64,000 nucleotides of DNA from contig NZ_LMUQ01000018.1 of NCBI RefSeq assembly GCF_009765865.1, forward strand, positions 1 through 64,000. The letters run 5' to 3'. The stretch is from Acidisoma sp. L85. Its GTDB lineage: Bacteria > Pseudomonadota > Alphaproteobacteria > Acetobacterales > Acetobacteraceae. Shown here one piece after another: positions 28,665 through 60,376 of this stretch; position 1 is the stretch's first letter, and every line of letters starts with the position of its first letter. The position numbers and the translations under genes were made by a program. The notes beneath the pieces are model-generated. The model was not told the origin of the DNA. It ran no database searches and was given only the letters and a program-made list of their open reading frames with translations.

Positions 28665-28696
28665 GTCTTGTCCTGCTTGTTCCCAGACCTGCCTTG

Positions 28697-30161: not shown

Positions 30162-30174
30162 GCTGGACAACGGC

Positions 30175-32053: not shown

Positions 32054-32098
32054 CCTCGCTGCGACGCTACCCGTGATCGCGCGGTGCAATGCGCTGGA

Positions 32099-33313
32099 TC
32101 ACTGCGATTGGACTTCCGTGAACGGCGTCACCTGAGGGGTATCTTCGCCTTTGATCTCAACCAGACCAATGGCGTTCACTCCTTGCCTTCGGTCCGGACC
32201 GAAGGCAATTGGTGGCACGATGCCCGTCTGGAAGTCGCTCATGCTCTCAAGCGCCGCCATCAGGCAGGAACGGGTCAAAGCTTTGGCTTCTTGTAACGCC
32301 TTGACAGTGATCTCAGCTTGAGCCCATCCGAGTTCTTCGAATGTGCCCGGCGCACGGCCAGTTTCCTTCGTGAACTGCTCGACAAACTGTTTGACGAGTG
32401 GATCCGGGCTGTTGATGGCAGCGGTCTCCTGAGCGACGATCATTCCTTGAGAGACATCCCCGAAGGGCTTGATGTAGTTCTTGTCATCCATGCCGGCCCA
32501 TGCGGCCGTGCGCGGGCTGTAGCCTATGCGATGCATCGCCTGCAGCAGCTGCCCTGTATCTGTGTCGGTCAGAATCAAGAACGTCCAGTCCGCATTGTTC
32601 TCGCGCAACTGCGTCGCGATTGGCGTGAAGTCAGGTGTTCCTGGGACCTCTGGAATATACTGCAGAGTCGTGCCGCCGCTACCGATGGCCTGCTCTATGC
32701 CTTTCTTCGCATCATCGCCGACATTGCCCTGGACACCGACGAGACTGATCTTCTTCGGCTTATAGGTGTCGATCACGTATCGCGCCATGATCTGAAACTC
32801 GGTGATGTAATCAACACTCGTCATGAAGACGTAAGGCGTCTTCATCGTTCCCAGCTGACTCGCCGGCGAATAGGGAGCGATGGCAGGGACTTTCTCCCGC
32901 TGCAGAAAGGGAACGACGGCAAGAAAGTTCGGGGTCCCTTCGCCGCCCGCGACGGCAAAAATCTCATCGCGTTGAACAAGCGTCCGCATCTGCTGCTGCG
33001 CGACGGCTGGAGAATATTGGTCATCGAGCACTTTGAAGTTGATCTGGCGGCCTTTGACGCCTCCGGCCTTGTTGATCATCGTATAATACGCTTTGGCGCC
33101 TGCGGCGGCGCCTAGCCCGGTAGCCGCGGCTGAACCTGTCAGGGGCATTGTTGCCCCGAGCTTGATTTCGGTCGCGCTAACACCTGGCGCGGCCTCGTCC
33201 GGATTGCATACCGCGGCAGCAAAGGAGGGAGTCACCGAAGCCATCCAAAGCACGATCGTACAGGCTTCCGCCCAACGAACCTTCGTAGGCCCGGCAATAT
33301 TGTGTTTATTCAT
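32099..33313 (-). CDS. Branched-chain-type ABC transporter substrate-binding protein
   Basis: A 404-residue periplasmic binding protein (Peripla_BP_6). The N-terminus has a signal peptide ending near SFAAA. The mature protein begins with a Cys-containing segment and then TEIKLGATMPLTGSAAATG, the classical LIV ligand-binding opening; VFMTSVDYITEF and FEELGWAQAEITVKAL follow. Despite the name, this class in rhizobia-like organisms often binds amides, aromatics or urea. Its operon partners (nitrilase, amidohydrolase) point to a nitrogenous ligand. Confidence 0.9.
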   Translation of the reverse strand: MNKHNIAGPTKVRWAEACTIVLWMASVTPSFAAAVCNPDEAAPGVSATEIKLGATMPLTGSAAATGLGAAAGAKAYYTMINKAGGVKGRQINFKVLDDQYSPAVAQQQMRTLVQRDEIFAVAGGEGTPNFLAVVPFLQREKVPAIAPYSPASQLGTMKTPYVFMTSVDYITEFQIMARYVIDTYKPKKISLVGVQGNVGDDAKKGIEQAIGSGGTTLQYIPEVPGTPDFTPIATQLRENNADWTFLILTDTDTGQLLQAMHRIGYSPRTAAWAGMDDKNYIKPFGDVSQGMIVAQETAAINSPDPLVKQFVEQFTKETGRAPGTFEELGWAQAEITVKALQEAKALTRSCLMAALESMSDFQTGIVPPIAFGPDRRQGVNAIGLVEIKGEDTPQVTPFTEVQSQ

Positions 33314-33376
33314 ACTGGTCCTCGCCCTCGTATGTTGCAGTCTTGCTGGCAGGAAAACTGTCGTGGTTTGCTGGCT

Positions 33377-34195
33377 CTACCCGAATGCATAGGATGGGCT
33401 GAGCGATTGTACTTTCCTCTGGACTTGGTAGGCATAGTGCGGGGCAATGCGGCGGTTTATGGCCTGGGCCGCATCGAGCACGGCGTTGCCAAGTTTTTCG
33501 ATTTGATTGGAATCTGTGGTATCGCGCAGGAAGCTGACGCTGATGCCGGCTAGCGGTTTACCGGCAGCGTCAAGAAGGGCTGCGCCCACCGCATAAACAC
33601 CAGGTAAGCTCTCCTCAAGGGCCGGTATCCAGCCTTTCACGCGATACTCCTCAAGCTGCTTGTTCAACAGCGACCGGGTATTGATCGAGTTCGGCGCCAA
33701 ACCCGGGAGGGTCGAATTCCCCAAAAGCAGATCGATCTGTTCGGGCGGCGTTTGCAGCAGTATGGCTTTACCAAAAGCTGTTGTGGAAATCGGAAGCCGA
33801 TCGCCGACCGCCCAAATAAAGCGGACCGGCGCTCGCCCTTCGAACGTGCTTACTATGACGACGTCCTGACCTTGAAGGACACCCATATACACGGTATGGC
33901 CAGTTCGTTCCGCAAGATCGCGAAGAATCTCATGCGAGAAATTTGTCAGCCTATTGCCAGCAAGATAGGTCGCGCCCAGTTCGCAAGCGGCAATACCTAT
34001 GCGGTATTTGAAACTTCCTATACTACGCTCGAGAAACTGGGCTTGCTCAAGCGTCGCTACGATGCGCGTTACCACGCTACGCGGGAGCTCGAGAATGCTC
34101 GTCAATTCCGCGACCGTTAGTTCCGGCCTGGCGCGGCTGAACGAGCGGAGCACCCGCAAGGTTCGCTCCGTCGTCTTGAGGGTATCGACGGCCAT
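33377..34195 (-). CDS. IclR-family transcriptional regulator
   Basis: A 272-residue regulator. Residues 5-70 are the winged helix (TLRVLRSFSRARPELTVAEL, LPRSVVTRIVATLEQAQFLE). The remainder is the IclR effector domain (GHTVYMGVLQGQDVVIVSTF, STTAFGKAILLQTPPEQI, LAGISVSFL). It lies 63 bases upstream of the LIV binding-protein gene on the same strand and probably controls that operon. The region before its ATG contains two GGTCATG repeats (near 34210 and 34230) that could be part of an operator. Confidence 0.9.
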   Translation of the reverse strand: MAVDTLKTTERTLRVLRSFSRARPELTVAELTSILELPRSVVTRIVATLEQAQFLERSIGSFKYRIGIAACELGATYLAGNRLTNFSHEILRDLAERTGHTVYMGVLQGQDVVIVSTFEGRAPVRFIWAVGDRLPISTTAFGKAILLQTPPEQIDLLLGNSTLPGLAPNSINTRSLLNKQLEEYRVKGWIPALEESLPGVYAVGAALLDAAGKPLAGISVSFLRDTTDSNQIEKLGNAVLDAAQAINRRIAPHYAYQVQRKVQSLSPSYAFG

Positions 34196-34466
34196 AATGT
34201 CCGATATCCGGTCATGACACTCGCGTATAGGTCATGCTACGGTCGCGCGGAGAAGCCTGTCAAGACGCTTGTCCACAACCGAAAGGCTCCGGCCGCAGTG
34301 TGTGGCCGTTCCGCATTGGGAGAAAGTTCTTGACCAGTAGCAAACGAATGATCTTCCGGTCGGCGCCATCCATAGTTGAGAATGTGACGAGATTTCAGGC
34401 AAAGGTCAGGTTACAGCGCCGGGGGCAGAATACCTGGGAAATCTTTTTCCGAGAGGATGAACGAGC

Positions 34467-35372
34467 ATGAGGCTAGGCTTGATCGGGCTCGGCAATATGG
34501 GTCTGCACTTCGGCACCAGGCTTCTGCGAGCGGGGCACGAGGTCGTCGTATTCGATCTTGACCAGGACGCGATGAACCGGCTGCATCGCGACGGGGCGAT
34601 TGTGGCCGAGAGCGTGCGGGATCTGGCCGCACAGGTGCCGATCGTCTTCCTCAGCCTGCCGACGCCGGAGATCGTGGCCAAGGTGGCGACCGGTGCCGAC
34701 GGCGTGATCACGGAGACCGATACCCGCATCGTCGTCGACCTGTCGACTACCGGCCCCACGATTACACGACTGGTCGCGGATCGCCTCGACGCAGTTGGCA
34801 AGCTCCTGCTTGGAGCGCCGGTGAGCGGCGGCACCGTCGCCGCGGAAAATGGCACGCTGACCGTGATGGCGGGCGGCCCGCGTTCGGCATTCGACGAGGT
34901 CGAGCCCGTGCTCGCCGCGATCGGTCGGAGTATCTTCTATCTGGGAATTGATCCCGCGCTCGGGCAGACGATGAAGATCATCAACAACACGCTCTGTGCG
35001 ATCTCGACTCTGGCTAGCTTCGAACTACTGGTGTTCGGAACGAAGGCGGGCCTTAACGCAAAGACGATGCTCGAAATAATCAATGTCTCCAGCGGTCGTT
35101 CCTTCGCGACGCAGGAGAAGATTCCGCAATGCGTACTGAATCGCAACTTCCCGATGCGCTTTACGACGGATCTGATCCACAAGGACGTCAAACTATGCAT
35201 TGAGGAAGCCGAGCGCATGGGCGCTCCTCTTTGGCTGAGTCCGGCGGCCAAGCAGATCCTGGCTTTCGCGATCAGCCAGGGCGATGGTCCGCGAGACTAT
35301 GCCCACGTCATCGAGCATTTCGAACGCTGGTCGAACGCTCAGTTCGGCGCTGCTGGCCCGGAAGAAGGCTGA
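34467..35372 (+). CDS. Beta-hydroxyacid dehydrogenase (3-hydroxyisobutyrate dehydrogenase family)
   Basis: A 301-residue NAD(P)-dependent dehydrogenase. The N-terminal Rossmann motif is GLIGLGNMGLHFG, followed by DLSTTGP, the substrate-binding GAPVSGGTVAAENGTL and the catalytic Lys in GQTMKIINNTL. Family members act on 3-hydroxyisobutyrate, tartronate semialdehyde or 2-hydroxymethylglutarate. The ATG is preceded by GAGAGGA. It is divergent from the IclR gene across 271 bases and lies upstream of the GntR/UTRA operon, but a gap of nearly 190 bases separates it from that operon. Confidence 0.9.
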   Translation: MRLGLIGLGNMGLHFGTRLLRAGHEVVVFDLDQDAMNRLHRDGAIVAESVRDLAAQVPIVFLSLPTPEIVAKVATGADGVITETDTRIVVDLSTTGPTITRLVADRLDAVGKLLLGAPVSGGTVAAENGTLTVMAGGPRSAFDEVEPVLAAIGRSIFYLGIDPALGQTMKIINNTLCAISTLASFELLVFGTKAGLNAKTMLEIINVSSGRSFATQEKIPQCVLNRNFPMRFTTDLIHKDVKLCIEEAERMGAPLWLSPAAKQILAFAISQGDGPRDYAHVIEHFERWSNAQFGAAGPEEG

Positions 35373-35533: not shown

Positions 35534-35560
35534 CAGTCAAAGGCGAACAGGTCCGTACAG

Positions 35561-36268
35561 GTGGCGACGAAATATAAGCGGGTCGCGGATAGTCTTATGC
35601 GCGGAATCCAGGCTGGATGCTTCCAGCCTGGCGACCGGCTTCCGGGCGAATACGACCTCTCCCGCAGTTTCGATGTCAGCCGCAGCACCATCCGGCAGGC
35701 GCTCTCCAGCCTTCAGCATGCCGGTCTCATCGAAACCTGGAGCGGCGCCGGGTCATTCGTCTGCTACAATGGTGCGCGGCTGGACGATGGTCTCGGCTGG
35801 TCGCGCGCGCTCGCGCGGCATGGCGTACAAATGCAAGCCAGAACCCTCCGCTTCGAACGGATCGAGGATGTCTGCCTGGCCGAAAGGCTCGCACTGCCGG
35901 CCTCCACCTTCCTCGCCCTCGACCGGGTAAGGTATACGATGGAGGAAAAGCCGATTTCCTTAGAGCGCAGCCGCCTGCCCTGGCGACCGAGCTTCGCCTC
36001 CGTGCTCAAGGACGGGTTGGCGGAGGGTTCCTTGCGTCGTACCCTGGAGAGCCTGGACATACGGCCGCTCGGCGGGACGGAGGCGGTCGATCTTATTCGG
36101 CTGCCGCCCGATGAGGCGGCTGAGCTTCAGCAGCCGGAAGGCGAACCATTTCTCGGAACAACGCGGATCGTTCAGGACGGAGCGGGTGCCGTAATCGAGC
36201 ATGTGCGCAGCTTGTTGCACCCGGCGCATTTCACACTGCACCTCAGCTTCGGCGAGCCGCAGAAATGA
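35561..36268 (+). CDS. GntR-family regulator, HutC/UTRA type
   Basis: A 235-residue regulator. The winged helix is at the N-terminus (VADSLMRGIQAGCFQPGDRL, SFDVSRSTIRQALSSLQHAG), followed by a UTRA ligand-binding domain (LALDRVRYTMEEKPISLERS, FLGTTRIVQDGAGAVIEH, FTLHLSF). It uses a GTG start. It overlaps the ADP-ribosylglycohydrolase gene by four bases (ATGA), so the regulator heads the operon and very likely controls it in response to the imported compound or a phosphorylated product. Confidence 0.9.
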   Translation: MATKYKRVADSLMRGIQAGCFQPGDRLPGEYDLSRSFDVSRSTIRQALSSLQHAGLIETWSGAGSFVCYNGARLDDGLGWSRALARHGVQMQARTLRFERIEDVCLAERLALPASTFLALDRVRYTMEEKPISLERSRLPWRPSFASVLKDGLAEGSLRRTLESLDIRPLGGTEAVDLIRLPPDEAAELQQPEGEPFLGTTRIVQDGAGAVIEHVRSLLHPAHFTLHLSFGEPQK

Positions 36269-37308
36269 GCGACGCGAGCGCGACACAGCCCTCAGCCCTC
36301 TCGCCCCAGCGAAGCCGCGCGCATGGCGCTCTTCTCGGGCTCGCCATCGGTGACGCGCTGGGAATGCCGACACAATATCAACCCCGTGCGCTGATCGCTG
36401 AGCGTTACGGCATTTTGGACAAGTTTTATCCAGGCCCGAAGGACAATTTCATCAGCCGCGGAATGGCCGCCGGCCGTGTGACAGACGACACCGATCAGGC
36501 TGTCATCCTGGGCGAGATGCTGGTTGCCGGCGGTGGCCGGATCGACCCGGGAGCCTTTGCCCAGGCCCTGCTCGCCTGGGAAGCGCGGATGATCGCCGCC
36601 GGGTCGGCGGATCTTCTCGGGCCCTCGACGCGCCATGCGCTGACGCTCGTCGCGGCTGGCACATCGACCGAGCTGGCCGGCAGAACGGGCGCGACGAACG
36701 GCGCCGCGATGAGGGTGGCGCCCGTCGGCATCGCCTTTCCCTCGCAGCCTTTGGGCGTGCTGGTGGAGGCAGTGTTCCAGACCGGGCATGTCACCCACAA
36801 CACGACCATTGCGATTGCCGGAGCCTCCGCCGTCGCGGCGGCAGTGAGTGCCGGGGTCGACGGCGCGAGCGTGATGGAGGCGCTGCGATTCTCCATCGAG
36901 GCAGCGCGCCTCGGGGCTCTGCGCGGCTTCTATTTCGCAGGTGGAGATGTCGCGTCTCGCATCGAATGGGCGCTCGACCTGATGCGTGGCAGCGACCAGG
37001 GGGAGGCACTCGACCGGATCTATCGCCTGGTCGGAACCGGAGTGGCCACCAATGAGGCTGTGCCAGCGGCGATCGCCATCTGCGCGGTCGCGCCCGAGGA
37101 CCCTTGGCTGGTCTGCCGCTTGGCCGCGAGCCTGGGCGGCGATTGCGACACGGTCGCCGCGATCGCCGGTGCCATCATGGGCGCCTGTCATGGAGCCGAG
37201 CGTTTCCCGGCGGATGCCGTAGCACGTCTTGCCCAAGCCAATCCGGAACTGGCATTGGAGGATCTGGCCAATCGCTTGCTCGCGCTGCGACAGGACGGCA
37301 GGCCTTGA
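36265..37308 (+). CDS. ADP-ribosylglycohydrolase-family protein
   Basis: A 347-residue protein of the DraG/ARH fold, a dimagnesium enzyme that hydrolyses N- or O-glycosidic bonds to ribose. The opening GLAIGDALGMP, the first metal motif VTDDTDQA and the C-terminal GGDCDTVAAIAGAIMGA supply the expected Asp/Thr ligands, so it should be active. It starts inside the regulator stop and is followed by a PfkB kinase overlapping by four bases. That context suggests a small-molecule ribosyl hydrolase role in catabolism rather than reversal of protein ADP-ribosylation. Confidence 0.88.
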   Translation: MSDASATQPSALSPQRSRAHGALLGLAIGDALGMPTQYQPRALIAERYGILDKFYPGPKDNFISRGMAAGRVTDDTDQAVILGEMLVAGGGRIDPGAFAQALLAWEARMIAAGSADLLGPSTRHALTLVAAGTSTELAGRTGATNGAAMRVAPVGIAFPSQPLGVLVEAVFQTGHVTHNTTIAIAGASAVAAAVSAGVDGASVMEALRFSIEAARLGALRGFYFAGGDVASRIEWALDLMRGSDQGEALDRIYRLVGTGVATNEAVPAAIAICAVAPEDPWLVCRLAASLGGDCDTVAAIAGAIMGACHGAERFPADAVARLAQANPELALEDLANRLLALRQDGRP

Positions 37309-38282
37309 CACCCCGCGCGCCAATACAGCGGCTTCTTTCTGTCGGCAGCATCCTTGCCGATATCCGGATCGAGGTGCCGTCGCTTCCCCCGCGCGGTGGC
37401 GATGTTCTTGGCTCCTCCGCAACCGTGATGGCGGGTGGCGGGTTCAATATCCTTGCCGCCGCGAGCCGCCAAGGATTGCCCGCTCTCTTTGCCGGTCTGC
37501 ACGGTACAGGTCCCTATGGCACGCGCATTCGCGAGGAGTTGGCGCGCGAGGGTATCGCCACTCTTCTGCCGCCGAGCCCAGAGGCGGATAGCGGCTTTTG
37601 CATTGTCCTTGTCGAGCCAGATGGCGAGCGGACCTTTGTGACCAGCCCGGGCATCGAGGCGTCACTTGGCGAGCGAGCACTGTCCGATATCCAGCTCACG
37701 GAAAGCGATGCGGTTTTCGTGTCCGGCTACGATCTTTGCTATCCGCAGCTCGGGCCGGCGATCGGCGCCTGGATCGGTAGGCTACCACTGGCTGTTTGGC
37801 TGATCGTCGATCCCGGGCCGCTTGCCGCTGAGATTCCGCCTGCCATTATAAATGCAGCGATGTCACGTGCATCGATCTGGACCATGAACCGGCGAGAAGC
37901 CGCTCTTCTCGGGGGCACCACCGATCTCTCTGAACTCCAACGCCGCATCCGGCCGCGCCTGCCGCCGGATGCCCTGCTGATCATTCGAGACGGCGCGGCC
38001 GGCGTCCATTTCTGCTTCGACGGTTGCGCGACGTTTCACACGATCCCTGCCCCTCGGGTCGCGATGGTCGATTCCACGGGCGCGGGGGACGCGCATACCG
38101 GTGTTCTGATTGCGGCTTTCGCGCATAAGATCGATCCGCTTTGGGCCGTGCCTCGCGCAAACGCCGCTGCGGCTCTTTCGGTCACACGGCCCGGCTCTGC
38201 GACGGCGCCAAATCGAGAGGAATTGGACAGGTTTCTCGCCGAACTAGATCGAAAGGCGCGAAGACACGAAGCGGAGGCTTGA
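37305..38282 (+). CDS. PfkB-family carbohydrate kinase
   Basis: A 325-residue ribokinase-like kinase. The N-terminal GGGFNILAAASRQGL binds the sugar, and the C-terminal signature DSTGAGDAHTGVLIAAF contains the catalytic Asp. The start is TTG 37305, overlapping the preceding stop (TTGA) with GGCAGG upstream; the open frame before that runs antiregister through the ADP-ribosylglycohydrolase gene. The obvious partnership is phosphorylation of a sugar, perhaps ribose, released by the preceding hydrolase. Confidence 0.87.
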   Translation: MTPRAPIQRLLSVGSILADIRIEVPSLPPRGGDVLGSSATVMAGGGFNILAAASRQGLPALFAGLHGTGPYGTRIREELAREGIATLLPPSPEADSGFCIVLVEPDGERTFVTSPGIEASLGERALSDIQLTESDAVFVSGYDLCYPQLGPAIGAWIGRLPLAVWLIVDPGPLAAEIPPAIINAAMSRASIWTMNRREAALLGGTTDLSELQRRIRPRLPPDALLIIRDGAAGVHFCFDGCATFHTIPAPRVAMVDSTGAGDAHTGVLIAAFAHKIDPLWAVPRANAAAALSVTRPGSATAPNREELDRFLAELDRKARRHEAEA

Positions 38283-38323
38283 GTCGCGAACCGACCCCAT
38301 TCACGGCAATAAGGAATCCCAAC

Positions 38324-39418
38324 ATGGCATCCAAGATCAACCGGCGGCGTTTCGCGCAAATCCTCGGCGCAGGATTATTGGCCGTGCCAACGATCGCGCG
38401 ATCCCAAGGAACATCGCCGTCCTTCAAAGGCCAGACTCTGGTGGTTGCCTCGTGGCAGAACTACGGGGCCGATGATGCGGGAAAACTGAAGCAATTCGAG
38501 CAGTTGACCGGCGCCACGGTTAAAAACGTCTATTTCACATCGGAAGACGACCTTCTGGTGATGCTTCGCCAGGGTGGTATCGGCAAGATCGACGTCGTGC
38601 TGCCCAACCTGGAATATGTCCAGCCCGCCGCGGTTGAATCGCTGCTGCAGCCTATCGATACGTCGCGCATCAAAGCCTGGGATACGCTGGAGCCGCGTTT
38701 TCGCAACGACCCCTCGATCCGGCAGGACGGCAAAGTCTATGCCGTGCCCTGGGTACAGGGCGCTACGTCCCTTGCGGTGAACCCGGATGTGCATCCCACA
38801 CCCACGAGTTGGTCTGTGCTTTGGGATCCGGCGAACAAGGGAAAGGTCGCGTTCTTCGACGATCCCAGCACGGCTGTCATGACCGCCGCCTTATACCTGG
38901 GAGAAGACCCGCAGAACCCGGATCTCGAAAAAGTTCGCGCGGCATTGCTGGCTCTCAAGGCCAACGTCAAATTATTCTGGTCCTCGGGTGACGACTGGAA
39001 CAAAGCCTATACGACCGGCGAAATCACGATGGGCAATCTATGGTCGGGGCTTGCGGGCACGCTTCGGGCCAATGGACATCAAGTCAATTTCATTCTGCCC
39101 GACGATGGCACCGTTGTCTGGGGTGATACCTGGGCAATCGTGAAGAACGCGCCCCATCTTGATCTCGCTTATGCTTGGGTGAACTATCTCACGAGCAAAG
39201 AATATTTCGTGGAGTGGATCACTAAACCGGGTCCCAACCAGGAATTGGCGGTTCCCGTCAACATTGCGGCGATCGACGCGCTTCCCAAATCGGCGGCGGA
39301 TTCGCTTCTGGCCGGCCCCTTGATCGAATACAAAGGAAAGGTCGCGCTGCAGACCGGCATTCCACCGAAACAACTCAAGAAATGGACTCAAATGTGGGAA
39401 GAGGTGAAGGCATCATGA
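38324..39418 (+). CDS. Polyamine-type ABC transporter substrate-binding protein
   Basis: A 364-residue periplasmic binding protein of the PotD/SBP_bac_8 type. Translation from ATG 38324 gives a twin-arginine-like signal (INRRRFAQILGAG, then ARSQG). The mature part starts FKGQTLVVASWQNYGADDAG and has typical hinge segments IDVVLPNLEYV and WGDTWAIVKNAPH. It belongs to the family that binds spermidine/putrescine, but relatives bind opines, sugars acids and other compounds. Linked enzymes argue for a glycosidic ligand. Confidence 0.88.
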   Translation: MASKINRRRFAQILGAGLLAVPTIARSQGTSPSFKGQTLVVASWQNYGADDAGKLKQFEQLTGATVKNVYFTSEDDLLVMLRQGGIGKIDVVLPNLEYVQPAAVESLLQPIDTSRIKAWDTLEPRFRNDPSIRQDGKVYAVPWVQGATSLAVNPDVHPTPTSWSVLWDPANKGKVAFFDDPSTAVMTAALYLGEDPQNPDLEKVRAALLALKANVKLFWSSGDDWNKAYTTGEITMGNLWSGLAGTLRANGHQVNFILPDDGTVVWGDTWAIVKNAPHLDLAYAWVNYLTSKEYFVEWITKPGPNQELAVPVNIAAIDALPKSAADSLLAGPLIEYKGKVALQTGIPPKQLKKWTQMWEEVKAS

Positions 39419-39422
39419 GCTG

Positions 39423-40304
39423 ATGGGCCGTCGCCTCATCTCCGCGATGACCACGCCCGTTCTGCTACTTCCGGCGGCGGGCGTATTAGCGCTCATGGTG
39501 ATCATCCCGCTCGCCGTGCTCGTCTGGTTCAGCTTCGCGCCAGATGGACCGGCGGCACCTTTGTCTTTCGACAGCTACGCGCGACTCTTCGGCACGGGGT
39601 TGTATCTGCATCTCGCGCTGAAGACGCTGATCACCGCCGGCGCCGCTTCCCTCGTGACGGCAGCGCTGGCCTGGTCGCCTGCCTGGGTGCTCTCGCGACT
39701 GCCGGGAAGAGCCCGCAATCCTATCTTGCTTGCGATCATCATTCCGTATCTCACCTCCTATTTGCTCCTGATCTACAGCATCTTTGTGGTTCTCGGACCA
39801 GGCAGCCCGGTGATGGAATTCCTTCGCCTGCTCGGTCTCGCGAAACCCGGCGCGTCGATCCTCTATTCGCAGCCGGCGACGCTGGTGATGCTAGTCTATG
39901 AGAATCTGCCTCTGATGATTTTCGTTCTTTTCTCCGGCATGCAGCGGGTCGACGCGAACTTCCTCGCCGCCGCGGCTTCGCTGGGAGCAAGTCGATGGCA
40001 CCGTCTGCGCCACGTCGTCTTCCCTCTGGCCTCGCCCAGCCTGGTGTCGGGCCTCATCATGGTTTTCGTGCCCATGGGAGGTGCCTTCGTCGAATCAGCG
40101 ATTTTGGGCGGCCCCCACGGGCTGTTGCTCGGCAACGTCATCGCCGATCAGATGACGCGCGCCGATGATCCTTCTTTCGGCTCCGCCTTGTCGATCCTGC
40201 TCCTGCTCGGCATGCTCGCGATTACTGGAGTTGTCGGCGGGTTGAGACCGGCTCTCGAATGGCTGTCCGCGGAGAGGAAAGCGCGCCATGCCACGCCTGC
40301 GTGA
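39423..40304 (+). CDS. Polyamine-type ABC transporter permease (PotB-like)
   Basis: A 293-residue inner-membrane permease with six or so hydrophobic segments. The EAA loop appears as AAASLGASRWHRLRHVVFPL, the contact site for the ATPase. It lies a few bases after the binding-protein gene and overlaps the second permease by 17 bases. It forms the channel with the next gene product. Confidence 0.9.
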   Translation: MGRRLISAMTTPVLLLPAAGVLALMVIIPLAVLVWFSFAPDGPAAPLSFDSYARLFGTGLYLHLALKTLITAGAASLVTAALAWSPAWVLSRLPGRARNPILLAIIIPYLTSYLLLIYSIFVVLGPGSPVMEFLRLLGLAKPGASILYSQPATLVMLVYENLPLMIFVLFSGMQRVDANFLAAAASLGASRWHRLRHVVFPLASPSLVSGLIMVFVPMGGAFVESAILGGPHGLLLGNVIADQMTRADDPSFGSALSILLLLGMLAITGVVGGLRPALEWLSAERKARHATPA

Positions 40305-41100
40305 CGCGGAGGCAATTTCACCGGGCATGGTCGCAGTGCTGACCGTCAGCCTGGCGATCCTATTTGTGCCTCTGTTTATAATCATTCTGCTATCATTCAA
40401 CATCTCGCCCTACGGAACGCTGCCTTTTCAAGGAACGCTGAAATGGTATGGCGCGCTCTTCAGGAATTCCGGGCTGCTGGCGCCGACCTGGTTATCGTTG
40501 CAGCTATCGTTTGTCGTGGCAATCAGCGCTAGCGTATTTGGCACCACAGCGGCGGTCTGGCTCGAAAAGCGAGCGACGCGCCTCGGTGCCACGATCCTCA
40601 AGGTTGCCTTGCTCAGCGCAATCACAGTGCCCTGGCTGATCCTTGGCCTGGCGATGCTATTGGTCATGAATGCGATCGGCCTCGGCCGAGGCTTGTTCTC
40701 GATGTATCTCGGCCTTCTCGCCACGACCTTGCCTTACGTCGTCTTCATCGTCGCGGCCCGGCTGCGAGCGCTTGACCCTGACCTCGATCACGCGGCGCGA
40801 TCCCTGGGTGCGAGCGCCTTTGTGACCTTTATACGCGTGAGCGCGCCTCTCATCCTGCCCGCGATCCTTAGCGGCACGCTGATCTCATTCATGGTCTCGT
40901 TCAATAATTTCCTGATCCAGTATTTCTTGGCTCCGTTTGGAGTTCAGACACTGCCTCTAAAAATCTACACGCTCATCCGCGTCGGCTACTTGCCCGACCT
41001 GAACGCACTCGCCACTGTTATCGTCGCCGCGACCTGCGTCATCATCCTGCTTCTGCACCGCCTGGGCTTGCGCAATTCCGGCCTTCCCGGCGGAGGCTAG
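40288..41100 (+). CDS. Polyamine-type ABC transporter permease (PotC-like)
   Basis: A 270-residue permease with multiple hydrophobic segments and the EAA-loop sequence HAARSLGASAFVTFIRVSAP. LPYVVFIVAARLRALDPDL before it is characteristic of PotC/PotI-type proteins. The gene ends two bases before the ATPase start. Confidence 0.9.
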   Translation: MPRLRDAEAISPGMVAVLTVSLAILFVPLFIIILLSFNISPYGTLPFQGTLKWYGALFRNSGLLAPTWLSLQLSFVVAISASVFGTTAAVWLEKRATRLGATILKVALLSAITVPWLILGLAMLLVMNAIGLGRGLFSMYLGLLATTLPYVVFIVAARLRALDPDLDHAARSLGASAFVTFIRVSAPLILPAILSGTLISFMVSFNNFLIQYFLAPFGVQTLPLKIYTLIRVGYLPDLNALATVIVAATCVIILLLHRLGLRNSGLPGGG

Positions 41101-41102
41101 AG

Positions 41103-42218
41103 ATGAGCAAGCTCGACCCCGCACTTGGCCTCGTTGTCGGTAAAGTTCATAAGACTTATAATGCTACGCACGTATTGCAGGACGTGAGTCTTAGCGTTCC
41201 CGGCGGCGAGTTCCACACCCTTCTGGGCCCGTCTGGATCCGGCAAAACAACACTGCTCAAGATCATCGCCGGATTCACCCCGGCCGATGCGGGCACCGTC
41301 ACACTGTCCGGGTCCGTGATCACCGACACCTTGCCCGAACACAGAAACATCGGGGTGGTTTTTCAGAATTACGCTTTGTTTCCACATATGACCGTTTCGC
41401 AAAATATCGCCTTCGGACTTCGTATGCGGCGCGTCCCGAAGCTTGAGCGGCAGCGTCGAGTTCAGGATGTCCTGGCTTTGGTCCGTATGTCCGGCTTTGA
41501 GCATCGTCGGCCAGCGGCACTTTCCGGCGGCCAACAACAGCGTGTGGCGCTTGCACGTGCCTTGGTGATCCAGCCGCAACTGCTGTTGCTCGACGAACCG
41601 CTTTCCGCGCTGGATCGTAAAGTGCGGCAGGAGGTGCGCGAAGAACTCAAACGCATCCAGGCGGAGACAGGTGTCACAACGGTCATGGTAACGCATGATC
41701 AGGAGGAAGCTCTGTTCCTGGCCGATCGTGTTCTGGTCCTGGAATCCGGCGCGCTGCGGCAGGAGGGCTCGCCCCATGACATCTACCGCAACCCGGTCGA
41801 TGAATTTGTCGCTGGCTTCCTCGGACCGATCAACCTGCTGAATGTCGAGAGCCGGCCTGGAGATGGGGGAATGGTGCTGCGCCTTGGCGCGCAGGATTTC
41901 GTTCCCGCCTCGGGGCTTGCGGTGACGGTAGTGGCCGCGAAGCTGTCAGGCCCGATGCACCTCGCGGTCCGTCCCGAACAACTCACGGTCCAACCGGCTC
42001 AGGGCACGGCTAAACCACCGGACGCATTGGCGGGCACAGTCACCGGCGTCGAGTTCGGCGGCGCGGTTGTCACCGTGCGCGTCGAGGTTGAGGGAAACGC
42101 TATGGCGATTTTGGCCCTCTCTCCCGATATCCTCGCGATAGCCTCATGGGATCCTGGTTCACCCGTCTGGGTCCGCATTCGGCAGGCGCGCGTGCTGCCA
42201 GTCGCGGAGCGTCGATGA
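41103..42218 (+). CDS. Polyamine-type ABC transporter ATPase (PotA-like)
   Basis: A 371-residue ATPase. It shows Walker A GPSGSGKTT, the Q-loop VFQNYALFPHMTV, signature LSGGQQQRVALARAL, Walker B LLLLDEPLSALD and switch MVTHD. A C-terminal TOBE domain follows from about residue 280 (MHLAVRPEQLTVQPAQ). The last codons overlap the glycosidase start (ATGA). It powers the importer encoded just upstream. Confidence 0.92.
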   Translation: MSKLDPALGLVVGKVHKTYNATHVLQDVSLSVPGGEFHTLLGPSGSGKTTLLKIIAGFTPADAGTVTLSGSVITDTLPEHRNIGVVFQNYALFPHMTVSQNIAFGLRMRRVPKLERQRRVQDVLALVRMSGFEHRRPAALSGGQQQRVALARALVIQPQLLLLDEPLSALDRKVRQEVREELKRIQAETGVTTVMVTHDQEEALFLADRVLVLESGALRQEGSPHDIYRNPVDEFVAGFLGPINLLNVESRPGDGGMVLRLGAQDFVPASGLAVTVVAAKLSGPMHLAVRPEQLTVQPAQGTAKPPDALAGTVTGVEFGGAVVTVRVEVEGNAMAILALSPDILAIASWDPGSPVWVRIRQARVLPVAERR

Positions 42219-44542
42219 CGGTCAGCCTGTCCCACCAATGGAATAGCTGGGATCAGCAAGATCCGCTCTCCATGGTTCATTTACCGACGGGGTTTTGCCT
42301 GCGGTTCTCGGCCTTCAGCAGCGCGGAGGGAAACTACCGGCTGCTCGGCGTCGGTTCCGGCGTGAAGATGCTGGAACATACCTCGGATGGCGGCTTCATT
42401 CGTGCCCGGATCGCTCATGCGGATAGCGAGATGGAGCTGACCTTCGCCAAGGATCACGCGCATGCGCTCTCCGCCCGCCTTCGGATGGTTCGGCTTGGGG
42501 AATGGGGTTTGCGCTTCTGGCTCGCGCTCGAAGTTGGCTTCCTGGAGCATGGCGGAGGCCCCCTTCCCTGGCGTCCCGACGAGCCCTGGATCGAAGTCGA
42601 AAATGCAGAGCCTCTCCCGCTGCGAGAGAACCCGCGCCTGATCGGCCGCCACCGGTCGCTGTGGATATCCGTGGCGTCGCGGGATCCGGCTGTTTTCGGC
42701 GGCGCCTACGAGACGATCGAGACATTTCGCGGCGACATCCAAAGCCAAGGCTATTACGCGCCACCTCGCGCCGCAAAACTCGGACGCTGGGGCGTCCTGC
42801 GGTTCAATGCGCAAATGCATCCGGAGATCGTCATCGCAGCCACTTTCGGCACGGATCGAGAAATGGCCGTCGAGGCAACGGATTCACTTCTTTCGCGGGC
42901 GTCTAGGCTCCTCGACTCCGCCACCGCCGCCGCAACCAAGGACACGCCTCCTCGCCAAGCGGTGCGGGACGTCGTGGCTTGGAATACCCTATGGGACCCT
43001 GCGAACCATCGGCCGACGACTGTTCTCACGCGTAATTGGCTGACGACGAAATTCTCCGGCTGGGGCGTGTGGCTGAACGACATGCTGTTCCACGCGCTGC
43101 TAGCGGCGCTGGCGGGCAATTGGGAAACCGCACGAGCCAATCTTGCGGCTGCCTTGGAATACCAATCTCCCGAGGGAAATTTGCCATGTCTTCGGACCGC
43201 GACGCAGGAATGGATTGATCGCTCCCAATCTCCGCTCGGCGGCTATATTCTCTGGCGCATCTTTGAATTGATCGGAGACCGTTCCCTGCTTGCGCTGCAT
43301 TTCGCACCGCTTTTGCGGGCGCATCGCTGGTGGATCGAGAAGCGGGACGGCAATGCGGACGGCCTCATCGAATATGGCAGTTCACCCACCGGAACTGGTG
43401 CTTTCGTCCATACGAAACAAGCGGCCATGGACGAATCCTTCATGGACAACGCCCCGATCTTCGACGAAAGCGGCTTCGATCCTGGCGTGCACACCCTCAC
43501 CATGGCCGAGCCGGGGCTGAACAGTCTCGTCTCGCTCGATGCGCAATTCCTGGCGCGGATCGCCACGGAATTGGGCGACACCGCCACGGCCATCGAATTG
43601 CGGGCGACGGCGGAGCGGCTTAATGCCCGTATCTCGGAGAGATTATGGGACCCAAATCGTCAAGTCTTCGCCGGTCGGCACTGGTCGGGCGCATTCGTCG
43701 GCTCCCTCTCCGCGGCCTGCTTCTTCCCATTGATCGCCGGCGCCGCAACGGAGGCGCAGGCGTCGGCGCTCATCGATCGCTATCTCGTGAATCCGGAGAA
43801 GTTCTGGGGCGAGCGCGTATTGCCGTCATCCAGTCACGATGACCCGGCAAGCGCTGACGACGTTTATTGGCGTGGCCGGATCTGGCCGCCTCATCTGTTT
43901 CTCGTCTGGGAGGGGCTGCGCCGCCATGGGCGCCGCGACATCGCGACCAAACTGGCCGAACGGGCATGGCGGATGTTCGAAACTGGCTGGAATGAAGCGC
44001 GGATCTGCCGGGAAAACTTCCACCGCATCGATCCGTCCGGAGATGACAGTCGGGATGCGGACCGGTTCTATACTTGGGGCGCCTTGATCCCGGCGATCCG
44101 CATGCTCGACACCGCTGATCTGTCGCCTTGGGAAGGCCGGGCATTCGCGCCGAAGGCGGGAGAGGACGCTACGCTGGTCGAGCCGGGTGCGGAATGGCGC
44201 GCCACGCGCCTGGGGGAGAGTATCCACCTCGCGCTGAACGGCCGGCTGTTTCTTAAAGCCGAGAACGCAAGTCATGTAGCCTTGCCAACTGCAACCGAGA
44301 ACACCACCAGGATCGCGGCTACTCCCGCCTCAGCGGCGACCGAGGTCATCCTGTCGCTCTATGGAATTGCCGAGGCCGGGCTGCGCGTTTGTGAAATCGA
44401 CGGCGCAGCGGCGACCCCCGCCTTCACCGAAAATGGCTTCACGTTGACGATTCCGTCTCGTCGGCACAGCGTCATACAACTCTGGCATGGTGGACGCTCC
44501 GTGGAGGCAGACCCAATTTCGGGGAATCACGCTGATGATTGA
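42215..44542 (+). CDS. GH63/MGH1-like glycoside hydrolase
   Basis: A 775-residue cytoplasmic protein with no signal peptide. The C-terminal two thirds look like an (alpha/alpha)6 barrel of the GH63/mannosylglycerate-hydrolase-like group: TTKFSGWGVWLNDMLFHALL, SPEGNLPCLRTATQEW, WWIEKRDGNADGLIEYG, AAMDESFMDNAPIFDE and YWRGRIWPPHLFLVWEGL. Acidic residues in the DGLIEYG, MDES and WRGRIW regions are the likely catalytic set. The N-terminal 270 residues are mostly beta. It starts in the ATPase stop and overlaps the next gene by eight bases. A cytoplasmic location means it cleaves an imported glucoside or similar, not an extracellular polymer. The exact linkage is unknown. Confidence 0.8.
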   Translation: MTVSLSHQWNSWDQQDPLSMVHLPTGFCLRFSAFSSAEGNYRLLGVGSGVKMLEHTSDGGFIRARIAHADSEMELTFAKDHAHALSARLRMVRLGEWGLRFWLALEVGFLEHGGGPLPWRPDEPWIEVENAEPLPLRENPRLIGRHRSLWISVASRDPAVFGGAYETIETFRGDIQSQGYYAPPRAAKLGRWGVLRFNAQMHPEIVIAATFGTDREMAVEATDSLLSRASRLLDSATAAATKDTPPRQAVRDVVAWNTLWDPANHRPTTVLTRNWLTTKFSGWGVWLNDMLFHALLAALAGNWETARANLAAALEYQSPEGNLPCLRTATQEWIDRSQSPLGGYILWRIFELIGDRSLLALHFAPLLRAHRWWIEKRDGNADGLIEYGSSPTGTGAFVHTKQAAMDESFMDNAPIFDESGFDPGVHTLTMAEPGLNSLVSLDAQFLARIATELGDTATAIELRATAERLNARISERLWDPNRQVFAGRHWSGAFVGSLSAACFFPLIAGAATEAQASALIDRYLVNPEKFWGERVLPSSSHDDPASADDVYWRGRIWPPHLFLVWEGLRRHGRRDIATKLAERAWRMFETGWNEARICRENFHRIDPSGDDSRDADRFYTWGALIPAIRMLDTADLSPWEGRAFAPKAGEDATLVEPGAEWRATRLGESIHLALNGRLFLKAENASHVALPTATENTTRIAATPASAATEVILSLYGIAEAGLRVCEIDGAAATPAFTENGFTLTIPSRRHSVIQLWHGGRSVEADPISGNHADD

Positions 44543-45125
44543 GGTTGCTCCTCTGCGAGACCCAAGTGACCCATCTGGTCGAGAATGGCTTCTCGTCATT
44601 GACATGCAGCGTGTCTTCGCCGATCCGGCGAGCCCATGGGCGGTAGGCCAGTTCGATGAGGTTCTCGCCCCGATCGAGACGCTCATCGCTGCCTACGCGG
44701 GCCGCGTGATTGCGACACGATACATTTCCCCACAACCGCTTGTCGGTGCCTGGGAGGGCTATTTCGAGAAGTTCGCCTCGCTGTTGCTGCCGTCCGACGA
44801 TAAGGCCTGGGATCTCATGCTGGCCGAACACCTGTCGTATAGAACCGAGACCCGCGCGACATTTGGCAAATGGGACAGTGGCATGGCCGCCGTGCTGGGT
44901 TCAGACGCGCCGATTGCCGTTTGCGGCGTTGCGACAGAATGTTGCGTGCTTGCGACAGTGCTAGCCGCGATAGACAACGGCAGATCGGTGCGGGTAGTTG
45001 CGGACGCCTGCGCGGGGTCATCCCCACTTTTCCATGACCAGGCTCTGTCTCTCCTATCGACATTCGCCCCTCTCGTTCAGATAACGCGCAGCGATGAGAT
45101 TTTGCGGTTCCTACAATCAGCGTAA
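44535..45125 (+). CDS. Isochorismatase-like cysteine hydrolase
   Basis: A 196-residue isochorismatase-fold hydrolase. The triad is visible as LLVIDMQRVF (Asp), FGKWDS (Lys) and GVATECCVLATV (nucleophilic Cys). The start is ATG 44535 inside the end of the glycosidase gene. It lacks the Asp-x-His/His metal-binding motif of PncA nicotinamidases: the corresponding stretch reads TRYISPQPLVGAWEGYF. Nicotinamidase activity is therefore unlikely, and hydrolysis of another amide, carbamate or ureide is more probable. It is the last gene of the operon. Confidence 0.85.
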   Translation: MIEVAPLRDPSDPSGREWLLVIDMQRVFADPASPWAVGQFDEVLAPIETLIAAYAGRVIATRYISPQPLVGAWEGYFEKFASLLLPSDDKAWDLMLAEHLSYRTETRATFGKWDSGMAAVLGSDAPIAVCGVATECCVLATVLAAIDNGRSVRVVADACAGSSPLFHDQALSLLSTFAPLVQITRSDEILRFLQSA

Positions 45126-45152: not shown

Positions 45153-45593
45153 TCACCTCAGCTTCTCTAAGAGTTGCGTGAGAAGAACCGATTCCGACTC
45201 TGTCAGCGGCGCGATGGTTTCGCGGCTGATGGCGATTGCGCGGCCGAAGTTCCGCGTCGTCACTTGTCGCCCGGCCTCGGTCAGATCAACCAGGATTTTT
45301 CGACCATCCGCGGGATCACGCAGACGCTTCGCGAGCCCGCGCTTGACCAGCCTATCGACCGTTCCCTTCACCGTGGCTCCATCCATCGAAACCGCGCGGC
45401 CCAAGGCAGTCTGGGGGGTCACGCCGATCTCGTAGAGGCGGGCGAGCACTGCCCATTGTGTAGGTTTGAGCCCATCGCCAATCATCTGCCCGAATATCGT
45501 CGTGTGGCGCTGACTCACCTGGCGCAGGACAAAGCCGATCTGCGCATCCAATCGGTAGATCGCGGTCGGCGACCGGCGTTGGTTCGTCCTCAT
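45153..45593 (-). CDS. MarR-family regulator (NicR-like)
   Basis: A 146-residue winged-helix regulator: YRLDAQIGFVLRQVSQRHTT at the dimer-forming N-terminus, LKPTQWAVLARLYEIGVTPQ, then the recognition region MDGATVKGTVDRLVKRGLAK and the wing RDPADGRKILVDLTEAG. Its place at the end of the hydroxylase/reductase operon recalls NicR, the MarR-type regulator of nicotinate genes in Pseudomonas putida, so an N-heterocycle may be the effector. It lies 53 bases after the UPF0280 gene on the same strand. Repeats between the divergent operons (52108 and 52211) are candidate binding sites. Confidence 0.87.
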   Translation of the reverse strand: MRTNQRRSPTAIYRLDAQIGFVLRQVSQRHTTIFGQMIGDGLKPTQWAVLARLYEIGVTPQTALGRAVSMDGATVKGTVDRLVKRGLAKRLRDPADGRKILVDLTEAGRQVTTRNFGRAIAISRETIAPLTESESVLLTQLLEKLR

Positions 45594-45646
45594 GAAATTT
45601 GGGCCAAGTGGGTTCCCTGGTCACCTTGCTTCATCGGAACTCGGCC

Positions 45647-46552
45647 CTAGGCATCTACCAATCGCGCAATGCGGCGCGGGATCGAAACTGCCGGCAACAT
45701 CGACGTGGCAACACTGCGACCGCTGAGATGAAGCGCGGCCGCCACGATCTCGCCTTCCGCCGCCAGACGTTCTGCAAGGCACAATCCACACGCCAGTGCT
45801 TCGTCAATTTCGCGACTGGACAGCCGGCCGACACCGCAAGTGACGAGAATTTCGCCGAGGTCGCTATCGGGTTGGATCGTGCTCGCCGGTCGGCGAAGAA
45901 TGTTCGGATGCGCAGGGAGATCGACGGCATTGGCGATCACGGTAGCAGCCGCGTCTGCCGCGGCCGCCGTCACCGCCAAGACCGTCACCGCATCAGCGAT
46001 GCCGCGTGAGAAACTCCGGCCCCGCCAGCCACTGGTGGCGATGCCGCGTATCGTGTCCGCATGATCGATCGTGAGGTTCCCGAAAAAATCTGGGCCGTTG
46101 CGCTCCGGCAATTTTGGGCGCGAGACCATGCCGACGGTCAGGCTCTGCCGCGGTCCAAGATGCACAGCAATGTCACCGCCATTGTTGACACAGGCACGAC
46201 TCAGGGGCGCGGCCTCGGTCATGATCGCGAGCATGGTCTCCGCCACGGCGCCTGCCACCGCCGCCATCGGCGTGATAAAGCCGAACCGCGTGAAAGGCGA
46301 GACAGCGGCACGCATGCGGCAGGCAATGGGATCGACAGGCCAGGGCACATTGGAAGTGACTGGCGCGCGCACCAGCGGCAGTTCCGCGCATAGCCGATCG
46401 AGCACTGTCGCGAAGGCCCGCACCGCGGCGTGATAGGCGGTGTCAACGGCATGCGCCGTACCTTCGGCCAACAGGATGAGGTCGATCGGCCCATCCTGAA
46501 GATGCAGACGCGGCGTGCCAGACCCGGTCATCAGTCGCGCGGTGGCCCTCAT
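45647..46552 (-). CDS. UPF0280-family protein
   Basis: A 301-residue member of UPF0280, a family distantly related to ApbE flavin transferases. Typical segments are VDTAYHAAVRAFATVL, MAAVAGAVAETMLAIM and the NNGGDIAVHLGP motif. The start is ATG 46552, overlapping the stop of the 6-hydroxynicotinate-reductase homologue (ATGA). ApbE-type proteins handle FMN attachment, and the partner reductase is a flavo-iron-sulphur enzyme, so a maturation or accessory role is a reasonable inference, but no activity of this family is known to me. Confidence 0.82.
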   Translation of the reverse strand: MRATARLMTGSGTPRLHLQDGPIDLILLAEGTAHAVDTAYHAAVRAFATVLDRLCAELPLVRAPVTSNVPWPVDPIACRMRAAVSPFTRFGFITPMAAVAGAVAETMLAIMTEAAPLSRACVNNGGDIAVHLGPRQSLTVGMVSRPKLPERNGPDFFGNLTIDHADTIRGIATSGWRGRSFSRGIADAVTVLAVTAAAADAAATVIANAVDLPAHPNILRRPASTIQPDSDLGEILVTCGVGRLSSREIDEALACGLCLAERLAAEGEIVAAALHLSGRSVATSMLPAVSIPRRIARLVDA

Positions 46553-48021
46553 TCCCGAGCCCGTGGTTCCAGCGGCGCCCAAGGCCAGGGATTCTCGGCA
46601 TTCGCCTTGACGTGGCGCGGTGTGCCATCAAGCACTAGCGAGGCCGCAGGCCGCACATGGTCCATGTGCCCACCCATGGCGGCAAACTGCGTCAACGGCA
46701 TGGTGAACTCGATCGGCGCGACCAAGGCGGGCGTCGGGACGTAGCCGAAAGCGTTCTCGGGCAGTCGCGTCACATCGACCATGAATGTGATACCTCCGCC
46801 TGGCCAAAGATAGACCGGCGCGCCGCCGCAGGTCAGCCGAGTGATACCCTCCGACACAGCTCGCGTCAGCCTCACTGGATTGTCGGTGACACCGGCGCGC
46901 AGCGATCCTCCGGCGCCACCGACGAAGACCACGCTGCACAAAGCAGGCTCGCAATTTTCGGCAATGCGTTCGACCGATTGCACGAGAACCTCGGGAAGCG
47001 GATGCGCGATCGGACGCAAAGCCTCGTCCAACTCGTAATAGGCGGAATGTTCGCCGGTGGTGCTGACCATCAGCATCCGCATGCCCGCCCGCGCATGCTT
47101 GGGGTCAAAAGGTTCAAGGATCGACAGAGGATCCGAAATATCGGTGCCGCCCCAGCCAGTGCCGGGATGCGCCACCTGAAAGTAGCGGCCGGGCGTGGAA
47201 CGCCGTCCGCGCATGCGAATGCCGGTCGGTGGAATGTCCAGCATCTTGCCCGCCTGATGCTCGGACAGCACGCCGGTAATGTGGTCGTCTACCACCACCA
47301 CCTCGTCGATCTTGCCAACCCATTGGCGGGCGAAGATGCCGATCGTCGCCGATCCACAGCCGACACGCATGCGATCTTCGGCCACGCCGTTCACGACCGG
47401 CGCACGCCCCGCTTGCACGATTACGCTTGCTCCCGTCTCGATCGTCAGCTCGACCGCCTTGCCATTCGAAAGATCGAGGAGCGTCTCACAGGTGACGCGG
47501 CCTTCCTTCTTGCCGCCGCCAGTCAAGTGGCCGACACCACCAAGAGACAGCATCTGCGAGCCGTATTCGGCGGTAGTCACATGCCCCACGGGCTCACCCT
47601 GGGCGAGCACCAGCGCGCGCTCGGGGCCGAGATGCCGGTCGGTGTCGATCTTCACCTTCACGCCGCAATAGCTGAAGATGCCCTCTGTAACGACGGTCAC
47701 CATGTCGACGCCTTCGACCATGGTCGAGACGATGAAGGGCGCCGGCTTGTAGTCCGGATAAGTCGTGCCAGCGCCGATCGCGGTGACGAAAGTCTCGGCG
47801 CCGCACACCATCCGGCCGTCCCACTCCACGCTATCGCCAAAGGGAACGACAGTACCGCCCTGGGCAACCGTGCGTTCCAGCAGCACCAGAGGATCGACAC
47901 GGACCAGCATGCCACCGTCATTGGCATAGCGGTCGCAGGCGCCAGCGGTACCCGGCCGGATATTGCACATGACCGGGCAAGCATCGCAGCGCACGATCCC
48001 CGGGGCGGATGCTTCGCTCAT
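46549..48021 (-). CDS. hnr: 6-hydroxynicotinate reductase homologue (Hnr family)
   Basis: A 490-residue protein resembling the flavin/iron-sulphur 6-hydroxynicotinate reductase of the nicotinate fermenter Eubacterium barkeri, which makes 6-oxo-1,4,5,6-tetrahydronicotinate. Cys 12, 15, 19 and 29 (RCDACPVMCNIRPG) form a probable cluster site. Glycine-rich stretches GGVGHLTGGGKKEGRVT, RVGCGSATIGIFA and the acidic VVVVDDHITGVL follow. It begins at ATG 48021 inside the nicB-like stop (ATGA) and is coupled to the UPF0280 gene. The neighbourhood with a nicotinate-hydroxylase-like complex supports a pyridine substrate. A different hydroxylated N-heterocycle is possible. Confidence 0.78.
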   Translation of the reverse strand: MSEASAPGIVRCDACPVMCNIRPGTAGACDRYANDGGMLVRVDPLVLLERTVAQGGTVVPFGDSVEWDGRMVCGAETFVTAIGAGTTYPDYKPAPFIVSTMVEGVDMVTVVTEGIFSYCGVKVKIDTDRHLGPERALVLAQGEPVGHVTTAEYGSQMLSLGGVGHLTGGGKKEGRVTCETLLDLSNGKAVELTIETGASVIVQAGRAPVVNGVAEDRMRVGCGSATIGIFARQWVGKIDEVVVVDDHITGVLSEHQAGKMLDIPPTGIRMRGRRSTPGRYFQVAHPGTGWGGTDISDPLSILEPFDPKHARAGMRMLMVSTTGEHSAYYELDEALRPIAHPLPEVLVQSVERIAENCEPALCSVVFVGGAGGSLRAGVTDNPVRLTRAVSEGITRLTCGGAPVYLWPGGGITFMVDVTRLPENAFGYVPTPALVAPIEFTMPLTQFAAMGGHMDHVRPAASLVLDGTPRHVKANAENPWPWAPLEPRARE

Positions 48022-52042: not shown

Positions 52043-52107
52043 CCGACGCGTCCTATTCGCTTCCGGCTGAAGGTGCCACCACCCGTCATGCCCAACAGCG
52101 TTCCTTA

Positions 52108-52224: not shown

Positions 52225-52237
52225 GGAGCTTCCGCTC

Positions 52238-60359: not shown

Positions 60360-60376
60360 TGCCAAGACGCCCGCCG

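Follow-up and report, generated by a model that had tools for sequence, protein, structure and literature searches.

An importer-type YegU/YegV/YegW operon beside a nicotinate-degradation cluster in Acidisoma sp. L85 points to pyridine N-glycosides as its likely substrates

The 64,000-nucleotide stretch of Acidisoma sp. L85 analysed here (the window), which is the start of a 135.5-kb contig in a genome of 6.4 Mb, holds an operon of nine plus-strand genes (35561-45125) in which we see the YegUVW module of Escherichia coli, in a variant with an importer, joined with a nicotinate-associated glycosidase, pyridine N-glycosides being the likeliest substrate. According to this reading, to which we give a probability of about two in three, N-glycosides of nicotinate or nicotinamide, and most likely the riboside, would be imported and the free pyridine ring released to the nicotinate-degradation cluster that starts 27 bp past the last operon gene with a MarR gene on the opposite strand. 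Neighbouring genes of the operon are separated by -17 to +41 nt (successively -4, -4, 41, 4, -17, 2, -4 and -8 nt) and all nine proteins exceed the Pfam gathering score, so that the initial annotation of nine tightly packed genes under a GntR/UTRA regulator is confirmed by both open reading frames and Pfam matches. The scheme it put forward, import of a compound carrying an amide and a glycosyl or ribosyl group (nucleoside-like or a plant glycoside) followed by deglycosylation, sugar phosphorylation and amide cleavage, fits the present findings, but it missed the adjoining nicotinate cluster, the repeated linkage to such clusters elsewhere and the relation of the first three genes to YegW, YegU and YegV.

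Judged by sequence similarity, these first three proteins, which are encoded together, constitute the YegW/YegU/YegV module. The regulator (35561-36268; Pfam GntR and UTRA) is 29% identical to E. coli YegW, also named GgaR (E 1e-13), the second gene (36265-37308) encodes an ADP-ribosylglycohydrolase-family protein (ARH), a proposed N-ribosyl hydrolase with 35% identity to YegU over 330 residues (E 6e-61), and the third (37305-38282) encodes a PfkB-family kinase (Pfam PfkB, 1e-32), a proposed ribokinase with 32% identity to YegV over 308 residues (E 1e-35). They are followed by a solute-binding protein of the PotD family (38324-39418; SBP_bac_8), two permeases of an ABC importer (39423-40304 and 40288-41100; both BPD_transp_1), its ATPase (41103-42218; ABC_tran and TOBE_2), a glycosidase (GH) of the MGH1/trehalase/GH63 kind (42215-44542) and an isochorismatase-like amidohydrolase (ICH; 44535-45125; PF00857, Isochorismatase, 2e-23). 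Compared with E. coli yegTUVW, with which it shares homologous hydrolase, kinase and UTRA regulator, the window has an ABC importer in the place of YegT, adds the GH and ICH genes, adjoins a nicotinate cluster and has a Gln in the hydrolase where a motif of YegU has Glu.

The nicotinate cluster itself (45153-56043) looks ordinary. On the minus strand it comprises the MarR regulator, which is NicR-like (45153-45593; 47% identical to the MarR of the Rhizobium nicotinate clusters L045 and L046), a protein that we take to be of the UPF0280 type (45647-46582; its match to NCBIfam NF003322 'hypothetical protein' scores 364.5 bits, the cut-off being 290), 6-hydroxynicotinate reductase (hnr; 46549-48021), and subunits B (nicB; 48018-51575; MoCoBD and Cytochrom_C, hence with cytochrome c domains; 58% to Rhizobium) and A (nicA; 51569-52042; Fer2_2; 59% to Rhizobium) of nicotinate dehydrogenase. 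The hnr protein has no Pfam or NCBIfam match and is named from its 64-68% identity to plasmid genes, 15 of which were compared (eight annotated as 6-hydroxynicotinate reductase, one as hypothetical and six unannotated). On the plus strand a HyuA/HyuB-type pair (52208-56043; Hydantoinase_A and Hydantoinase_B), with relatives of 60-72% identity in loci L047, L169 and L170, is proposed to open the reduced ring. The hnr clusters of Neorhizobium and Paracoccaceae plasmids likewise combine nicA, nicB and hnr with hyuAB or apc and with MarR or nicR (MarR or nicR genes are present in L169 and L170, where the nicB homologue is annotated as such, and the UPF0280-type gene comes after hnr in L047 and L169), and what the window adds to this arrangement is the nine-gene operon as a supposed supply line.

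Since the two clusters lie apart in other Acidisoma, little could be concluded from their being neighbours in the window, but the linkage recurs in other bacteria. Among 201 Halomonadaceae genomes, ARH was found in 12, nicB in 32 (called at 57-62% identity and E<1e-240, with 6 of 38 matches, at 41-44%, set aside) and GH in five, and in all five GH-bearing genomes the GH gene has the genes for ARH and an ABC importer next to it. The same five fall among the six genomes that have both ARH and nicB (hypergeometric 2e-9, a value that is only a guide given the kinship of these genomes), with 1.0, 19.8, 21.3, 24.3 and 24.6 kb between nicB and ARH, while in the sixth nicB is 2.8 Mb away and the importer occurs without GH; the ARH match of one further genome (G927) is in two pieces and was left out of the locus reading. 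In Halomonas salipaludis all nine families of the operon recur, split into two divergent groups, together with relatives of nicB, nicC, nicD, nicE and nicX within about 26 kb, and relatives of nicC, nicD, nicE and others are found both there and in Salinicola. The names nicC, nicD, nicE, nicF and nicT were assigned here to Pantoea and Rhizobium genes from annotation and gene order, guided also by the nic cluster as we presume it to be organised, and matches elsewhere were named by their similarity to these genes. Within the window's own family, 12 genomes outside the genus have GH, and in seven of them, from four genera, nicB lies 9.0-11.6 kb from it.

On Rhizobium plasmids GH, a PotD-type importer and the cysteine hydrolase ICH are found between nicotinate dehydrogenase and MarR, and resemble the corresponding window proteins (GH 34%, binding protein 36%, ICH 31% identity). 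These clusters differ from the window in that the ARH/PfkB/GntR module is absent from the 22 kb read and that they carry a GH3 and a large glycosidase-like protein instead. The latter (L045 7226-9970), a 914-residue protein named carbohydrate-binding, adjoins GH and GH3, shows a similarity to GH106 rhamnosidase that is below the cut-off, and has relatives in L021, L023-L027 and L030. In Pleomorphomonas a PotD-type protein and GH are found 9-10 kb from hnr, and in Burkholderia stagnalis, which belongs to a third clade of importer-type ARH, ARH and importer adjoin relatives of nicB, nicX and MarR. A different context is provided by a Lactiplantibacillus plantarum plasmid, where an NrtR-like protein (5e-13, below the curated cut-off), nicotinate phosphoribosyltransferase (1e-205), ICH, ARH, NCS1 and PfkB are encoded consecutively (L043 4824-11196) in what looks like an NAD-salvage regulon. 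The placement of nicB and hnr was followed in 35 genomes, 18 of them drawn from the best 80 ARH loci, and hnr is present in all five alphaproteobacterial ARH genomes other than Acidisoma that were compared (in one case in two pieces) as against 67 of 384 genomes in the class, a comparison in which genome size was not controlled and which excludes L078 and three rhizobial or Paracoccus plasmid records.

A genome scan with ARH returned at least 556 relatives at E<=1e-3, a figure that spans the wider ARH family, and the best 80 of these were surveyed as loci. Three types of transporter accompany the YegUVW module: the MFS protein YegT, as in E. coli and Pantoea, an NCS1 'cytosine permease', which is the majority type with matches in 62 of the 80 loci, and the PotD-type ABC importer, matched in 11 of the 80, two of them (L060 and L105) weakly at 26%. 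In annotated examples of all three types the kinase gene comes together with that of the hydrolase. An Enterococcus raffinosus locus (L044), where ARH follows a PTS gene and no PfkB is annotated beside it, was not used as support. In a tree of 76 ARH rows (75 loci and the window, 25 of 100 loci having been dropped for want of a clean ARH frame), a 100/100 split separates five rows with the motif Glu, including YegU, from 71 with Gln, including the window, whose ARH is accordingly a relative of YegU in another deep clade. Importer-type ARHs fall into three separate clades, which amounts to three changes, be they gains or losses, and each clade has a member beside nicotinate genes, the window being one of them; the 'nic' flag of L095 is a 23% match and was excluded from the counts. 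Nicotinate linkage recurs for the version with importer and GH, but not for most NCS1-type loci.

Several points weigh against the substrate that we favour. As to distribution, clear nicotinate clusters within about 10 kb accompany only 2 of the best 80 ARH loci (L093 and L102), and only 7 of the 80 match any Nic reference protein, several by way of weak or transporter matches; at the thresholds applied, GH and nicB are both missing from the five NCS1-type Halomonadaceae genomes; and among the 12 GH genomes of the window's family nicB is on another contig in two and true nicB is absent in three. No nicotinate genes adjoin E. coli yegTUVW in the 12 kb read, and Pantoea, at first counted as general support, was withdrawn when the link proved to be present in P. 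dispersa and not on two other Pantoea plasmids, that is, in one of three loci read. In Acidisoma itself operon and hnr/nicB cluster are on separate contigs in G283, G378 and G395, a fourth genome (G389) has the nicotinate cluster and no operon, and the genomes compared are in any case related rather than independent samples. As to function, the Gln for Glu in ARH might signify altered or lost hydrolase activity, and the metal-binding motif of the nicotinamidase PncA is absent from the ICH sequence. If the reading is to cover the NCS1 and MFS types, nicotinate must there enter NAD salvage while ribose feeds central metabolism, a corollary for which the Lactiplantibacillus locus is the single supporting case. 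Finally, the effector reported for YegW is ADP-glucose (PMC10819704).

The scarcity of clear clusters near ARH loci and the separation of the two clusters in three other Acidisoma would suit the notion that nicotinate linkage is a by-product of the clustering of genes for plant-compound catabolism, with the operon serving some other plant glycoside or nucleoside. We regard this as unlikely in view of the five GH genomes out of 201 Halomonadaceae that all have ARH and nicB as well, the seven of 12 GH genes near nicB in the window's family, and the linked member in each of the three importer clades. The module, with no matches to nicotinate genes, is also found in Vibrio, Caballeronia and Paraburkholderia (L172, L177 and L178), and in Plesiomonas with none annotated. 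A function in ADP-glucose and glycogen metabolism, as proposed for GgaR and yegTUV of E. coli from gel shifts of YegW with ADP-glucose and from expression data (PMC10819704), appears very improbable for the window, since it is not suggested by an importer, a GH and an amidohydrolase beside nicotinate genes, since the regulator is just 29% identical to YegW, and since the functions of yegTUV are called unknown in the same 2024 paper.

Gene content, homology and the recurrent linkage are observed, and from them we infer the substrate and every catalytic step of the pathway that pyridine N-glycoside breakdown would require. A cationic pyridinium N-glycoside would be taken up by the PotD-family binding protein and the ABC importer, its N-ribosyl bond would be cut by the YegU-type hydrolase and the released ribose phosphorylated by the YegV-type kinase. 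GH would act either on substrates of a second class, for example nicotinate glucosides, by taking off their hexosyl group, or on a further sugar carried by the riboside. When the ring is nicotinamide, its carboxamide would be hydrolysed by ICH, and nicotinate would finally be degraded by NicAB, Hnr and HyuAB, with the GntR/UTRA protein sensing either the substrate or a product. Ribose would be favoured over arabinose or xylose, the kinase being nearest to ribokinase and a pentose isomerase being absent among the nine operon genes. Suitable compounds are made by plants: nicotinate riboside, N-glucoside, an N-pentoside and an N-rhamnoside all occur in Arabidopsis, the last two being highly accumulated in roots (PMC6776627).

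The ARH of the window contains the PF03747 domain (5.1e-61) and retains the TDD and DxDT motifs, but the Glu of the GDAxGxxxE motif, present in 1t5j, 2cwc and 2woe, the solved relatives for which an alignment was at hand, is replaced by Gln (36373-36375). The same Gln occurs in 78 of the best 80 ARH loci, the others being L111, which has Glu, and L117, which is without the motif (both are outside the tree), and this would appear to be an active-site change across a widespread enzyme family. The protein does not reach the curated NCBIfam scores for DraG (95 of 337.05 bits) or Tri1 (78.6 of 490 bits). For the kinase, in which GAGD is invariant in eight of eight sequences, the best solved relative of its profile is E. 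coli ribokinase (3.8e-42), and its score for the curated ribokinase family TIGR02152 is below the cut-off (89.4 of 299.65 bits).

The order of the two steps could also be reversed, with PfkB phosphorylating the riboside and the YegU-type enzyme then cleaving the nucleotide to nicotinate and ribose 5-phosphate. There is a precedent in PsuK and PsuG, which treat pseudouridine by phosphorylation first and cleavage second, and ADP-ribosyl hydrolases handle ribose that is phosphorylated at the 5' position; furthermore, such an order would agree with the pairing of kinase and hydrolase across the MFS, NCS1 and ABC examples and with the presence of some nucleoside kinases, which the PfkB family includes, among the profile matches. 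The kinase profile is nevertheless nearest to ribokinase, well ahead of the adenosine kinases (best 1.3e-27), and we consider this order, which is a sub-case contained in the probability given above for pyridine N-glycosides, to be improbable.

The binding protein matches PotD by profile (3e-58), PotD and PotF being its nearest solved proteins and the binders of agropine and mannopine distant matches, and together with the ABC parts it belongs to the family of the PotABCD spermidine/putrescine importer. The importer was previously described as polyamine-type, and this holds for the family, but not for all of the binding site. Of the residues that we take to contact polyamine in PotD, six are kept (W34, Y37, W229, W255, D168 and D257) and four are not (E36, Y85, E171 and Y293), which makes binding of polyamines only unlikely as far as these residues can tell. 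Since four of the aromatic residues and two Asp are kept and the others lost, the pocket would rather seem to suit a singly charged aromatic cation such as a pyridinium N-glycoside. Uptake of polyamines or opines, for which the nearest solved proteins and the agropine and mannopine binders could be cited, was rejected on account of the altered residues and of the other enzymes of the operon, which belong to other families; we deem it extremely unlikely, and no support was found for the opine-like substrate that had also been suggested.

The glycosidase, first labelled GH63-like, matches Pfam MGH1-like_GH (PF22422, 1e-42) and Trehalase and has no Pfam GH63 match at E<=0.001, although the best solved relative of its family profile, YgjK, is a member of GH63. 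The Asp of its MDN motif and the Glu of EN[FY], whose roles we take to be the familiar ones, are invariant in eight of eight aligned sequences, and no signal peptide is obvious by eye, from which N-terminus the enzyme is probably cytoplasmic. GH also occurs in nicotinate clusters that have no ARH nearby, for which reason its substrates are probably glucosides or other hexosides. In three other Acidisoma (L018, L019 and L130) GH aligns only to about residues 1-638, the last 130 or so being unmatched.

The best solved relative of ICH is named pyrazinamidase/nicotinamidase (4.5e-8). Measured by the metal motif and the Asp/Lys/Cys triad that we assume to define PncA, it has the Asp and the Cys, lacks the Lys in the usual column and has a Lys in FGKW instead. 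An ordinary nicotinamidase was accordingly rejected, the absence of the metal motif and of this Lys being matched by a score of 25.7 of 174 bits. The metal motif of PncA holds the ring nitrogen and, to speculate, might be dispensable to an enzyme whose substrate is N-glycosylated on the ring. The active-site motifs, earlier described as intact, are so for TDD and DxDT of ARH and for Asp and Cys of ICH, but not for the ARH motif Glu and the usual Lys of ICH. A relative of ICH is present in 25 of the best 80 ARH loci, and one of 38% identity with a similar SKW motif is found in a marine nicA-nicB-hnr cluster (L170 1736-2293), the sequence read around it being free of ARH. ICH-type proteins with the GKW/SKW Lys and no PncA metal site are a recurrent partner of ARH, found once in a nicotinate cluster. 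An ICH profile whose rows included PncA and NicF was left out of the evidence.

If the proposed pathway is correct, a substrate class can be named for yegTUVW, the enzymes of which were called unknown in function in the 2024 paper (PMC10819704), and likewise for a widespread hydrolase family (at least 556 relatives, the wider ARH family included), and bacteria of soil and roots would gain a route to the vitamin-B3 conjugates of plants; in either case the proposal makes the yegTUVW question testable. The titles and opening lines of abstracts seen on yegU/yegV, hnr clusters and the breakdown of nicotinate glycosides contain no description of such a pathway. A tentative extension, about which we are somewhat more doubtful than hopeful, would make the operon the first bacterial system to be recognised for the salvage and degradation of pyridine N-glycosides (the ribosides of nicotinate and nicotinamide and the nicotinate glycosides of plants). 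It would also see in the whole YegU/YegV family, which ranges from E. coli to Streptomyces, hydrolases of pyridine ribosides with their ribose kinases behind three kinds of transporter rather than ADP-ribosyl or glycogen enzymes.

Conservation of the gene set as a unit, which the initial annotation had named as a check, is borne out in Acidisoma, where four of the five genomes searched have the operon and all five the hnr/nicB cluster. The full set of nine is present in two, the window genome and G283, and the ICH gene was not found in G378 and G395 within the stretch of about 2-5 kb past the glycosidase. The starts of the PfkB, GH and ICH genes were placed at 37305 (a TTG), 42215 and 44535, where they most plausibly lie. 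A plus-strand direct repeat, ACAGGTnCGnACAGGT (35544-35562), runs into the beginning of the regulator gene and is a candidate operator. It is preserved in four of four upstream regions from Acidisoma, which otherwise show little resemblance to each other. The frequency of sigma-70-like sites and of terminators did not exceed that in shuffles.

Upstream of the operon, a minus-strand operon for an ABC importer of the branched-chain type, which includes a nitrilase-like gene, and then an IclR-like regulator can be recognised by eye (27741-35372), the gene directly preceding the operon being 3-hydroxyisobutyrate-dehydrogenase-like (34467-35372). A liv-type ABC operon common to the Neorhizobium nic cluster and the vicinity of the window is not claimed, the pairs being 24-26% identical. 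Farther away, another molybdenum hydroxylase and its 2Fe-2S subunit are encoded on the minus strand at 9260-12569 and just beyond, with 37% and 43% identity to the Rhizobium nicotinate dehydrogenase proteins. Beyond the nicotinate cluster, also on the minus strand, an HpcH-type aldolase, an L-threonate-dehydrogenase-like protein (below the cut-off) and an amidase are encoded consecutively (58774-61927) and possibly take part in later steps of nicotinate breakdown.

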